A DNA stretch of 43,985 nt, taken from the NCBI GenBank assembly GCA_944383835.1, contig CALWRE010000008.1, positions 1 to 43,985 of the forward strand, given 5' to 3'. This DNA comes from an uncultured Lachnospiraceae bacterium (GTDB taxonomy: Bacteria; Bacillota; Clostridia; Lachnospirales; Lachnospiraceae). Each line of letters starts with the position of its first letter. The stretch's first letter is position 1. Under the pieces are notes generated by a model. That model searched no databases and was not told the origin of the DNA. It was given only the letters and a program-made list of their open reading frames with translations. Shown piece after piece: positions 1 through 2,974 of the stretch. The position numbers were made by a program, and so were the translations under genes.

Positions 1-284
1 TTAAATTCACCGACTACCGCCACACTGAATTTTTCCGACGCCAAGTACGCTCTGATAGAAGCTAACTGTTCCAACAAGTCCTTCCTGCCGGCTTCACGGC
101 AATATCCTTCCAGCTTCTGAAGCCGCGCCATAAAAGCTTCGTCATAGAAGCTGAGATTTACATTTTCCCTGTGCTCTGGCTCCCTCACGGAAAACTCTCT
201 ATTTTCTTGTATATCCGTCCTTTTCTCCGTGCTCTCTTTCAAAGGGGCCGGATCATTGAAAAAGTTTTTATTTTTGAGAAACAC
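1..284 (-). CDS. Dynamin-like GTPase, N-terminal part (cut by window edge)
   Basis: This is an open frame of about 94 codons that runs off the left edge. It starts at a GTG (282-284) placed 8 bases after an AAAGGAGG ribosome site, and it begins 14 bases after the stop of the upstream gene, so the two are probably co-transcribed. The N-terminal 60 residues are charged and low in complexity. The last visible residues read KFSVAVVGEF, which is the beta-strand plus the start of the P-loop (VGEFxxGKS) typical of bacterial dynamin-like GTPases; the GKS itself lies outside the window. Members of that family hydrolyse GTP and remodel or survey membranes. The family call rests only on this short motif and its position about 85 residues from the start. 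Another small GTPase with a similar P-loop lead-in cannot be excluded. Confidence 0.6.
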   Translation of the reverse strand, partial: MFLKNKNFFNDPAPLKESTEKRTDIQENREFSVREPEHRENVNLSFYDEAFMARLQKLEGYCREAGRKDLLEQLASIRAYLASEKFSVAVVGEF

Positions 285-298
285 AGCTTCCGCCTCCT

Positions 299-820
299 TT
301 ATTGCTCGATATACCGTTCAAAGAACTGGGGGGAAAGAGATCTATAGAATGGATGTAAGGACGGTTCTGTCATCATGGTATAAAGTCCTGACAGTTTTTC
401 CTCATCTTCTTTCGTAAACTCGCCCTCATCCCCTAAAAACGCGATTAAGCGGTTCAGCGCGTCATATAAATCTTCTTTCGCTTTTTTGTATCCATCCCGA
501 TCCAAATGTTTGATTGCTTCATGCCGGAATATCCCCACCGGCTTATCAAAATTCACCTTTGCATACCGGGGATCCAACCGAAGGTTTTCAAACGATGTCA
601 GTTTCCCGCTCGGATAGTCCAATGTGAGCTTATATTCCGGCGGCATCAGCAAAGTCTGGTCATTTGGCCGCAGCACGGAACGATAGTAAAAAACGGAAAC
701 TAAAAGCCGGTCCCCTGTAATATTGAGTACCGGGAATCCCATTCCCAGCCCCATCGGGATATTTTCACGGACGGCGCTGCCTGTATTGATTTTCTTTAAA
801 AACTCCTGTATTGAAAGCAT
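299..820 (-). CDS. Hypothetical protein between C39 peptidase and GTPase genes
   Basis: This 173-residue protein has a good ribosome site (AGGAGG, 8 bases before the ATG). I do not recognise its family. The N-terminal half (to about residue 95) looks like a compact beta-rich domain containing a PxLNITGDRLLVSVFYY stretch. The C-terminal half is helical and acidic (LYDALNRLIAFLGDEGEFTKEDEEKLSGLY). There is no signal peptide or membrane segment, so it is likely cytoplasmic. It lies 50 bases after the C39 peptidase gene and 14 bases before the GTPase gene, which suggests one operon. The link to peptidase or GTPase function is inferred from position only. Confidence 0.75.
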   Translation of the reverse strand: MLSIQEFLKKINTGSAVRENIPMGLGMGFPVLNITGDRLLVSVFYYRSVLRPNDQTLLMPPEYKLTLDYPSGKLTSFENLRLDPRYAKVNFDKPVGIFRHEAIKHLDRDGYKKAKEDLYDALNRLIAFLGDEGEFTKEDEEKLSGLYTMMTEPSLHPFYRSLSPQFFERYIEQ

Positions 821-870
821 CGTTTCATCCTCCTGCTCTATTGTTCTTGATATTCCTCCATCCGTCCGGA

Positions 871-1866
871 TCAGGCGTATGCCTCCACATAGTAGTAACC
901 GCTGTCTTCCCAGGCGTCCATAAACTGAGAAGCCGGTACTGTGATCGCGTGTCCGTCCATCGTGCCGGAATCATTGATAATAACCATCGGCTCCGGGCTG
1001 GAATAGTCGATTCCGATAACCTCTACCGCATGGTTCGGATCGTTCGGCGCATAGGTTTCGGTATTTCCATACCAGATTTCATTCCCGTCCACCGCTACGA
1101 CAATCCTGCCGCCATTTTCCAGACAGTTATGAAGATCCTCCATATCTCCGCCAAAACTTTTTTCTGTTTCAGCGCCAAGATAATTCAAGATTTTGTCCAT
1201 ATCCTCCATGGAGGTTCCATCATCGTACCACCCTTGCTCCGTGGCGACGTCTATCATCTGTTGAGGGTCAATGTCCTGTCCGGTCATGCCTTCATACGCC
1301 ATTACCTGCGCATAAATTGCACAGGGACCATTTTCTCCCTGATAATCCCAGCACTGCTCGTCCGCAACAGGAGTTCCGACTACCTGGGACATATCGGTTT
1401 CCGCGGGATTAAACTGCTCATATCCCGCGTCAAAGCCTCCGCCTTCGTCTACCGGGACATATCCGCTGTCCGGACTTCCGGTAAACATGGCCCATTCCTC
1501 CGCGTCCATGATCTGTGTTGTCTCAAAAACAGTGTCGCCGTTGGCGTCTTCGCCAAAAAACACACTGTCCGCGATTCCATCCCCGTTTGTATCAACGTCC
1601 ATAAGGGTGGCAGAATAATCCGTAAATCCATCGCCGTTTGTATCTTGATATACAGAAACAAAATCCACGATCCCGTCGCCATTTGTATCTACCGATGCGG
1701 TAATGGTATCGAACACGCCGTCTCCATTCAGGTCTTCATATACTGCTTCCCCGTCCATAATGCCGTCTCCGTTGTAATCCGTCCCTGTTGTAAAGCTGTC
1801 TGCTCCCTGCGATATGGTGGGATCTTCACCGTCTAAGGCCCCTGAAAAATCCATAAAGTCCTTCAT
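871..1866 (-). CDS. C39-like cysteine peptidase with Ca-binding DxNGDG repeats
   Basis: This is a 331-residue protein with an AAAGGAGG ribosome site 9 bases before the ATG. Residues about 29-112 hold six copies of a D-x-N-G-D-G-x-x-D loop, the calcium-binding pattern of dockerin and thrombospondin type-3 repeats; the last copy is degenerate. Residues about 165-331 form a papain-fold C39-like domain. It has a Cys in NGPCAIYAQ (about 182), a His in PNHAVEVIG (about 279) and an Asn-Asp pair in VIINDSG (about 298). A Gln shortly before the Cys could complete the oxyanion hole. There is no signal peptide, transmembrane segment or cell-wall motif, which is odd for a protein with calcium repeats. 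It is followed by an unknown gene and a dynamin-like GTPase, and preceded by a LytTR regulator that may control it. The substrate is unknown. Confidence 0.8.
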   Translation of the reverse strand: MKDFMDFSGALDGEDPTISQGADSFTTGTDYNGDGIMDGEAVYEDLNGDGVFDTITASVDTNGDGIVDFVSVYQDTNGDGFTDYSATLMDVDTNGDGIADSVFFGEDANGDTVFETTQIMDAEEWAMFTGSPDSGYVPVDEGGGFDAGYEQFNPAETDMSQVVGTPVADEQCWDYQGENGPCAIYAQVMAYEGMTGQDIDPQQMIDVATEQGWYDDGTSMEDMDKILNYLGAETEKSFGGDMEDLHNCLENGGRIVVAVDGNEIWYGNTETYAPNDPNHAVEVIGIDYSSPEPMVIINDSGTMDGHAITVPASQFMDAWEDSGYYYVEAYA

Positions 1867-1906
1867 GATGTGCTTCCTCCTTTTTCAGTATCTTCAGCTT
1901 GTCTCC

Positions 1907-1935
1907 ATTATATCGTTGTAGGGATATGGCGCCAC
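1907..1935 (-). promoter_or_regulatory. Candidate promoter of the C39 operon, weak -35
   Basis: A perfect TATAAT (-10) lies at 1907-1912 on the minus strand, about 41 bases before the C39 start codon. At 17-bp spacing the -35 position reads GTGGCG, far from TTGACA. A good -10 with a poor -35 is typical of activator-dependent promoters. This fits with the LytTR gene just upstream and the direct repeats at 1962-1990. Confidence 0.5.
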
Positions 1936-1961
1936 CCCTTTTGCCGTATTGGACGAGCAAA

Positions 1962-1995: not shown

Positions 1996-2712
1996 TTATA
2001 TTGTGGCTTCCCATGGAAAAATGCGGTTAACGTCTTTATAATACCGCTTGCTGATTCCGAGCGTTTCTCCGTTGCTCAATATCAGATTCCGTCCCGTGCG
2101 GTCAAGCTGGCAGATGCTGTCGATATTTACGAGGAAACTTTGATGGCATCGGAAGAATGTTTCTTCCGGAAGCGCTTTTTCCACATCGTCCAGAACGGCG
2201 GCAAAGGCACACACATCCTGCGGCCGTACCGTATGAACAATTACCTGATGAAGACGGCTTTCCAGATATAGGATTTGCCGGTAGGGAATCCGCACGCTTT
2301 TCGCTTTTGTACGGATACAGAAGCATTCTTCACGTTTTCTGTGCAGATGATATAGGCAGGACTGCAACGCTTTGGCTACTTCTCTCTGCCCGTCTCCATC
2401 TGAATGTATCCACGCCGCAGGTTTGTACCGCATATCTCCTGATACTTCCTCCGCAGGCGTATCCAGAAGAATATACTCCGGATTGGAAGAAGTGTGTTCC
2501 ATGAGCCTTTGCGCATGCTCTTTCTCAGCCGTATCAATGCAAATGATGTCAAATTGATATTTCCCGTTCAAAAGGTTCTCTGAAAACTTCTGTAAATTTT
2601 GAATGGAGTACACCTTTCCATAGACCTGCGACTGTTTTAAGCTGTTTATAAAATCTTGCGAAACCTTTTTTCGATACTCGCTGTCGTGATGGTATACCGC
2701 AATTTCAATCAT
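1996..2712 (-). CDS. LytTR-family response regulator
   Basis: This is a 238-residue protein. The ATG at 2710-2712 is chosen because GGAAAGGAGG lies 8 bases before it; a longer frame to 2760 lacks a ribosome site and would run through the leader. Residues about 1-110 resemble a receiver domain, with an Asp in CIDT near residue 60, but the other acidic and Lys positions are poorly conserved, so phosphorylation is uncertain. Residues about 135-238 form a LytTR DNA-binding domain (RIPYRQILYLES, FFRCHQSFLVNID, NGETLGISKRYYKDV). No sensor kinase is visible. The upstream leader holds a long hairpin and an 11-copy tetranucleotide repeat. The gene ends 130 bases before the C39 gene, its likely target. 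Confidence 0.88.
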   Translation of the reverse strand: MIEIAVYHHDSEYRKKVSQDFINSLKQSQVYGKVYSIQNLQKFSENLLNGKYQFDIICIDTAEKEHAQRLMEHTSSNPEYILLDTPAEEVSGDMRYKPAAWIHSDGDGQREVAKALQSCLYHLHRKREECFCIRTKAKSVRIPYRQILYLESRLHQVIVHTVRPQDVCAFAAVLDDVEKALPEETFFRCHQSFLVNIDSICQLDRTGRNLILSNGETLGISKRYYKDVNRIFPWEATI

Positions 2713-2759
2713 AAATATGGCCTCCTTTCCTGACAGCCATATATTCCTGGAAAAAAGCA

Positions 2760-2805
2760 AAAAAGGACACAGAAACCCTTTGAAAAGGATTTCTGTGTCC
2801 TTTTT
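2760..2805 (-). terminator. Long leader hairpin before the LytTR gene
   Basis: Two 16-base arms (2760-2775 and 2790-2805) are perfectly complementary, and the loop can extend the stem further. On the minus strand the stem is followed by TTTTTTGCTTTTTT, then the ribosome site of the LytTR gene about 30 bases on. It lies downstream of the candidate promoter at 2889-2917, so it would act as an attenuator within the leader. If that promoter is not real, it is simply a terminator for upstream transcription. Confidence 0.65.
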
Positions 2806-2842
2806 GATTCTGAATAGTATTCTTGAAAAGACAGACTACTCC

Positions 2843-2886
2843 TGTATGTATGTATGTATGTATGTATGTATGTATGTATGTATGTA
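2843..2886. repeat. Tetranucleotide repeat, 11 copies of TGTA
   Basis: Forty-four bases consist of 11 perfect copies of TGTA (TACA on the minus strand). Such tracts change length by slipped-strand mispairing in many bacteria. This one starts immediately after the candidate -10 of the LytTR promoter, so the transcription start and the 5' leader would lie in it. Copy-number change would alter the leader length in steps of four bases. Confidence 0.95.
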
Positions 2887-2888
2887 AA

Positions 2889-2917
2889 AGTTTACCTATG
2901 GCGGCCATGCTTGTCAA
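2889..2917 (-). promoter_or_regulatory. Candidate promoter of the LytTR gene
   Basis: On the minus strand a perfect TTGACA (2912-2917) is followed after 17 bp by TAAACT (2889-2894). The transcript would start at about 2882, within the TGTA repeat, and give a leader of about 170 bases that includes the long hairpin. Confidence 0.5.
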
Positions 2918-2974
2918 CCCCCTATTGCACAAATTTTACAAAAAATTATACTGCAATTACCTCCAATTATAATT

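Follow-up and report, generated by a model that had tools for sequence, protein, structure and literature searches.

Dynamin-like GTPases of bacteria have been described in several settings. In cyanobacteria, dynamin genes adjoin genes of the DnaK type in a so-called chaperone clade (PMC5827413), DynA, a dynamin of Bacillus subtilis, protects the membrane and delays lysis by phage (PMC8844932), and conflict systems built of a GTPase, HSP70 and GrpE are also known (PMC7159879). The purpose of the bacterial dynamins and the partners that activate them are mostly open. Here we describe a locus of an uncultured Lachnospiraceae bacterium (assembly GCA_944383835.1, contig CALWRE010000008.1), in which genes for a LytTR-type transcription regulator, a C39/papain-like cysteine peptidase with calcium-type loops, a 173-residue protein of unassigned fold (P173) and a dynamin-like GTPase follow one another. 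The stretch of DNA analysed, called the window below, is the whole of this contig (C8, bases 1-43985). A protease and a small protein encoded beside dynamins are concrete, testable partners for the latter, and if the loops gate the protease, the locus would be one of the few intracellular protease circuits of bacteria that are triggered by calcium.

The cyanobacterial chaperone clade, where a dynamin gene stands beside a gene with a DnaK/Hsp70 domain, is comparable to the Anabaena and Rhodococcus loci considered below; the word peptidase does not occur in the main text of that report, and C39 or P173 genes may be present there unnamed (PMC5827413). The mycobacterial envelope-stress locus iniBAC has a dynamin pair, with a dnaK-like gene nearby in one species, and further includes IniR and IniB; no C39, P173 or LytTR gene appears in the passages of the source that deal with it (PMC5760070). 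Going by names, no IniB or IniR gene is present in the annotated Rhodococcus regions. GTPase-centric conflict systems combine an NTPase (nucleoside triphosphatase) switch with Hsp70 and sometimes GrpE, and the terms dynamin, C39 and LytTR do not occur in that text (PMC7159879). The Anabaena cluster does encode DO-GTPase-like proteins; GAP1 had no match among its ten proteins scanned, and neither DO-GTPase nor GAP1 was listed in two Pfam scans of proteins from other loci. For DynA, the part of the source concerned mentions no linked protease (PMC8844932).

In the Eleos (LeoABC) system, dynamin-like GTPases are likewise encoded together. L003, a close relative of the window locus, has three dynamin genes (dynamin-like proteins DLP1-3) with C39 and P173, in contrast to the Leo gene pair of Eleos; the models of both LeoA and LeoBC extend over the greater part of DLP2, and that of LeoBC over the greater part of DLP3. 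The best PADLOC Leo matches of DLP1, DLP2 and DLP3 score 47.5, 72.3 and 55.3 bits (LeoA/LeoBC on DLP1 and DLP2, 46-72 bits; LeoBC on DLP3, 55), for which the tool gives no cut-off. To our knowledge, Eleos lacks a peptidase core. Outside bacteria, calpain assists membrane repair in animal cells as a cytosolic cysteine protease with calcium sites that acts where calcium enters. It serves us as a working analogy to the calcium-loop C39 protein; homology is not claimed, and the calcium modules differ. Among the literature matches listed, which were open-licence papers, none linked C39 peptidases to bacterial dynamins or Hsp70.

The recurrence of the locus in several related bacteria, and of related forms of it in a cyanobacterium and in soil bacteria, suggests a shared, so far undescribed machine for damage response or defence. 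As the best explanation we tentatively propose, with somewhat less than even confidence, that the window genes make up an accessory operon and represent, within a wider family of C39-P173 loci, the form with calcium loops; the operon would serve a response to envelope damage or phage. This assignment is based on the dynamins, which resemble 2j68 and IniA, on the published role of one bacterial dynamin, on the accessory distribution of the locus and on its carriage by plasmids.

Operon organization and the dynamin-like GTPases

All four genes lie on the minus strand of the window, co-directional as had been stated in a preliminary description of this DNA, and are read from right to left in the order LytTR regulator (1996-2712), peptidase (871-1866, 331 residues), P173 (299-820) and the N-terminal 94 codons of the dynamin-like GTPase DLP1 (3-284); the gaps of 50 and 14 bases given for the last three genes are correct. 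The LytTR domain is the only Pfam family above cut-off among the four products. Since the left end of the window is the contig end, which cuts DLP1 within its P-loop lead-in, the GTPase cannot be completed in the window, and a search of the window's own assembly found no continuation of it.

The proposal that the left-edge protein is a dynamin, made from the lead-in VGEF with GKS expected to follow, is borne out, as far as a relative can show it, by L003, a contig of a metagenome-assembled genome from chicken (CAJFJV010000043.1) whose P173 is 79% identical to that of the window. Over residues 2-95, the L003 dynamin is 59% identical to the 94 residues of the window protein, and it continues with NRGKST. 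The gene order in L003 is LytTR, C39 with loops, P173, a 620-residue dynamin (DLP1), a 672-residue dynamin (DLP2), a 1026-residue protein (DLP3) and a small, hydrophobic 174-residue protein. DLP1 of L003 has an intact P-loop (sequence VAVVGEFNRGKST), the motifs GEFNRGKS, DTPG and TKLD, and a Pfam Dynamin_N match at 6.5e-26. DLP3 contains two dynamin stretches with a P-loop in the second alone; the G1, G3 and G4 motifs are thus found in DLP1, DLP2 and the second half of DLP3, and the lead-in alone in the window. DLP2 matches the Nostoc-type bacterial dynamin-like protein 2j68 (residues 29-644, E 2.1e-32), and the helical domain PF21808 is above cut-off in DLP2 and not listed for DLP1 or DLP3. 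The highest 19-residue hydropathy means of DLP1-3 are 1.54, 2.25 and 1.97.

Genome G273 shares this order of seven genes and encodes homologues of each of the three dynamins and of the 174-residue protein. On plasmid pANA01 of Anabaena sp. 90, genes for Hsp70, a protein of unknown family, two DO-GTPase-like proteins (one above and the second below the Pfam cut-off) and a paralogue of the unknown protein are followed by C39, P173 (24% identity, E 2e-12) and two dynamins. The dynamins of genome G692, DLPa and DLPb, match those of Anabaena at 29% over 660 and 33% over 523 residues, and those of Rhodococcus more weakly. The C39-P173-GTPase trio pointed out in the preliminary description thus has counterparts elsewhere, with its three genes directly next to one another in L003, G273, G692 and Anabaena. 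The window's own genome encodes another dynamin (L047 6145-10043, contig C143), truncated at a contig end; it adjoins a sensor kinase and a response regulator that match the pair beside the C39 locus of genome G253 at 41% and 56%.

Calcium-type loops and putative catalytic set of the C39 peptidase

The window peptidase combines N-terminal calcium-type loops with a C39-type domain in 331 residues, with no fused ATP-binding cassette (ABC) transporter and no membrane-type stretch. Six loops had been counted; five are canonical DxNGDG and the sixth is the variant DANGDT. They lie at residues 30, 45, 60, 75, 92 and 107 (minus strand, 1522-1779; spacing 15 or 17 residues), and five canonical loops compare with a mean of 0.009 and a maximum of 1 in 1000 shuffles of the protein. 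Acidic residues number 71 and basic ones 4, and the protein lacks a strongly hydrophobic stretch, the highest 19-residue mean being 0.74 (a hydropathy measure, not a signal-peptide program).

The window member has no C39 match of its own in Pfam; ten of the twelve aligned family members match Peptidase_C39_2 at E 0.1, the best at 3.2e-9. By alignment, Gln176, Cys182, His279 and Asn298/Asp299 (minus strand, 970-1341) form a putative catalytic set of the papain/C39 type with an oxyanion Gln. Gln and His are invariant in the twelve proteins, and Cys and Asp are kept in eleven. Against solved structures, the C39 profile gave ficin at E 0.12, which supports no more than the term papain-like; designed TIM barrels were also returned through summed repeats with no single significant stretch, and were left unused.

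The C39 and LytTR families both occur in bacteriocin and quorum-sensing loci. It is therefore conceivable that a leader peptide, once processed by the C39 protein, acts as a signal through the LytTR regulator, the dynamin being unrelated downstream cargo, and an ABC transporter is encoded upstream of the loci of genomes G015 and G664, separated from them by a gene on the opposite strand. We consider this highly improbable: the gene lists of the L003 and G273 operons include no ABC exporter, the window C39 has no strongly hydrophobic segment, and dynamin, HerA or Hsp70 genes go with the core in all ten loci.

A different arrangement of the same components was found in soil bacteria. A search of plasmid records gave 28 matches, including 14 from Rhodococcus, 12 from Prescottella equi (presumably virulence plasmids) and one from Streptomyces. 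Seven of the 14 Rhodococcus records were examined, and all seven have annotated GTPase and Hsp70 genes less than 10 kb away from C39, six of them also having an annotated dynamin; the seventh, the USK13 plasmid, has a long frame of the DLPa type by profile. Directly upstream of C39, a gene encoding 6 to 8 calcium-type loops was found in each of the six loci scanned, and the WAY2 loop protein resembles the calcium-loop C39 protein of G692 (32% over 138 residues, E 9e-7). The fact that loops and peptidase are fused in some phyla and encoded by neighbouring genes in another argues for their joint action. The earlier suggestion of a calcium-loop protease joined to a membrane GTPase is strengthened by this arrangement.

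Two forms of the C39-P173 locus and their predicted function

P173 has no family in Pfam, NCBIfam or PADLOC; ten sequences were aligned. It was found in four of 299 genomes of the host family by a single-protein query, and by profile in two of 392 genomes of the order, two of 398 of the phylum (one marginal) and one of seven of the genus; these draws overlap, and the host genome is one positive in each. The marginal match (G915, E 7.6e-4) covers part of a 1413-residue frame and is read as chance. The C39-domain profile has matches in 56 of 397 family genomes, seven of which reach at least 144 bits (G273, G000, G015, G223, G664, G692 and G253), and P173 adjoins C39 in all seven; the other 49 score 20-32 bits and are read as other C39 proteins. 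Conversely, C39 is adjacent in seven of seven loci found through P173 (window, L003, G273, G015, G223, G499 and Anabaena; G915 excluded). Ten distinct loci result, nine related ones and one on a cyanobacterial plasmid, with P173 and C39 adjoining in each. A LytTR gene is present in the nine related loci, and each of the ten encodes dynamin, HerA or Hsp70 proteins along with the core.

The loci are divided into two forms. Five have the calcium-loop form (window, L003, G273, G692 and Anabaena), in which dynamins follow the core and no HerA-like gene was seen in the stretches scanned; the loop counts of the first four by one pattern are 5, 5, 7 and 6, respectively, and a separate count gave 2 for Anabaena. 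The other five (G015, G664, G223, G499 and G253) have a loop-less C39 protein and encode a HerA-like ATPase, together with Hsp70-like proteins in G015, G664, G223 and G499 and dynamins in G253. Hsp70 is not confined to one form, as it is present in Anabaena, and G692 encodes a GrpE-like protein (Pfam 3.6e-12) and, about 3 kb further at the contig start, an Hsp70-like fragment. The preliminary description of a protease and GTPase system is partly supported, the trio being recurrent, and is incomplete: HerA-like and Hsp70-like ATPases are encoded with this core as well, so that the dynamin is only one among several partners that can be exchanged.

In trees built without G664, the HerA-type rows form one group for both C39 and LytTR (support 100/99 each), for which reason the five-to-five split of loops against HerA may go back to one event in evolution; in the C39 tree, the calcium-type rows are only in part resolved as a group. 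All three trees cluster G499, which belongs to another family, with G223 and G253, a placement consistent with the genes having moved together. Over eight loci, the pairwise distances of the C39, P173 and LytTR proteins give correlations of 0.79, 0.80 and 0.89 (permutation p 0.0014, 0.0014 and 0.0008).

Several Hsp70-associated loci have further features. In G223, a vWA protein (Pfam 1.6e-6) and, by eye, a macro-domain-like protein are encoded just past the Hsp70-like genes (L010 8930-10281). Of the two Hsp70-like proteins of G015 (L009 12019-16637), one carries BspA-type leucine-rich repeats after its ATPase part; the other carries what we take to be Sel1-type repeats in that place. A separate 309-residue protein of G499 (L046 372-1298) resembles the BspA-repeat protein of G015.

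An Hsp70 relationship was also considered for P173 itself, because the ten-row profile matched the HSC70 lid (E 9.5e-4) and five of 13 sequences in the related set were Hsp70s. Neither half of the alignment had an Hsp70 among its listed matches, and when the profile was compared with substrate domains from 12 DnaK proteins the probability was 0.2, against 0.1-0.3 for five control pairs; a stand-alone Hsp70 substrate-binding part was thus rejected. A Foldseek search with the P173 model returned 770 matches at E 10 and none at 0.001 among the 50 listed, and was not used. P173 is predicted to be an adaptor.

According to the proposed mechanism, the proteins of the system would reside in the cytosol, and the dynamins would assemble where the inner membrane has been damaged or perforated by phage. 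The lesion would admit calcium, and this would load the loops of the C39 protein, which would then turn active or bind a partner and cut either a protein of its own system (P173, dynamin or LytTR regulator) or host proteins. P173 would link the protease to the NTPase machine that the given locus encodes, expression would be set by the LytTR regulator and the leader terminator, and the outcome would be membrane repair or shutdown of the infected cell; repair and abortive defence are indistinguishable from sequence. A more far-reaching and doubtful version would have a constant protease-adaptor core served by interchangeable NTPase modules (dynamin, Hsp70/GrpE and HerA), with the calcium-loop branch as a bacterial equivalent of the way in which calcium triggers proteases and dynamins to act on wounded membranes, directed against phage or envelope attack.

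The patchy occurrence of P173 in the four genome draws, its exchangeable NTPases and its carriage on plasmids are also what would be seen in phage defence by abortive infection, where the NTPase module (dynamin, HerA or Hsp70) senses and switches, the C39 protein is a toxic effector released when phage perturbs membrane or DNA, and the loops merely stabilise it. The Leo models match DLP2 and DLP3 of L003 over most of their length at low scores, the PADLOC models HerA and mad8 match the HerA-like protein, and the Anabaena DO-GTPase-like protein recalls the switch of conflict systems as described in the part of the source concerned (PMC7159879). PADLOC, however, has no match for P173, C39 or LytTR, no relative was found in viral contigs, and the G273 locus lies amid genes that look by eye like ordinary chromosomal ones; we regard this alternative as possible, on the doubtful side. 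As to a phage origin of the locus, it was rejected, the phage records searched having no P173 match and the viral contigs no relative.

Returning to the calcium-gated response to envelope damage or phage, a number of observations weigh against it. Half of the P173 loci (5/10) lack loops, so calcium is not a general trigger, and both calcium binding and gating of the C39 protein are predicted from the motif; its protease activity and substrate are likewise predictions. AlphaFold models of C39 and P173 (two sequences each; mean predicted local distance difference test scores, pLDDT, 41.9 and 46.8) were too poor to use. No Hsp70 was found in the scanned stretches of the window, L003 and G273, and P173 was not detected in the six Rhodococcus loci scanned. 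G015 is placed with the calcium-type rows, in an unresolved group, by the P173 tree and with the HerA-type rows by the C39 and LytTR trees, and the correlated distances may stem from common descent alone. Finally, the C39 protein of G253 has Ala in place of Cys and has also lost Asp; catalysis is therefore dispensable in some loci.

The loss of the catalytic Cys in G253 would suit a system of envelope-stress upkeep in which C39 and P173 are scaffolds that recruit dynamins in the manner of iniBAC, the protease fold being a binding domain with no proteolysis. The sole solved relative of the Rhodococcus WAY2 dynamin at E 0.001 is IniA (E 2.3e-13), and a dnaK-like gene adjoins iniR in M. smegmatis according to the passage concerned (PMC5760070). 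A mere scaffold would, however, not need the selection that has kept Cys, His and Asp in 11 of 12 aligned C39 proteins, and we consider such a role unlikely. About 26 kb from the first, another C39-type gene lies on the G253 contig; Cys, His and Asp can be recognised by eye in its product, and it adjoins a further dynamin, 45% to the first one. An inserted element seems to split this region (L049, L084), parting two related dynamins and two C39-type genes; its recombinase-like gene, named by eye, is at L084 10562-12178.

Control region and surrounding element

The LytTR regulator (Pfam LytTR 8.2e-22; nine sequences aligned), whose start codon was assigned by eye from GGAGG at 2721-2725, has a divergent N-terminal part with no Response_reg match in Pfam, and the gene lists include no kinase gene in the operon. 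Upstream of it on the minus strand is a suggestive promoter-like site, TTGACA-17-TAAACT (2917-2889; 10/12 matches), of a kind found seven times against 6.1 expected by chance. The tetranucleotide repeat noted previously is real, with 11 perfect TGTA copies (2843-2886, strand not assigned), and starts two bases past the -10 element, within the leader. It is followed, ahead of the LytTR gene, by a hairpin of 20 pairs with a T-run (minus strand, 2805-2760), of the intrinsic-terminator type.

L003 has a hairpin at the equivalent place, with 18 pairs in common, three changed on both sides in a compensatory manner and three on one side. The sole long open reading frame upstream in L003 runs in the opposite direction, so the hairpin there is unlikely to terminate a gene that precedes it. 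As L003 keeps the hairpin and lacks the repeat, attenuation of the operon is better supported than switching by repeat length, which had been suggested and finds no support here; the conserved leader terminator is the better candidate for control. Comparable hairpins were not found in the G273 and G692 leaders, the latter having a weak one of eight pairs, and Rfam gave no match at gathering score in the window or L003.

The rest of the window (3154-43311) resembles a conjugative or plasmid-like element, with genes for a ParM-like actin (3542-4453), a TraG/VirD4-type coupling protein (30528-32435) and a TraG/VirB4-like ATPase (34950-37931). DNA similar to part of 3150-6250 is present in 11 other genomes of 200, two of which, G149 and G119, were examined over 14 kb around the ParM/ParR-like pair; LytTR, C39, P173 and dynamin genes are absent near that pair in both, and the operon was thus rejected as a fixed part of the neighbouring element. 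The element also encodes another C39-type protein (37941-39338, Pfam 4.5e-16), unmatched by the family C39 profile, and a 1345-residue surface protein (24363-28400) with a thioester domain and six SpaA-type stretches. An AbiEii-type nucleotidyltransferase toxin gene lies at 19738-20724 (Pfam 1e-21), and its 237-residue neighbour (20727-21440) may be the antitoxin.

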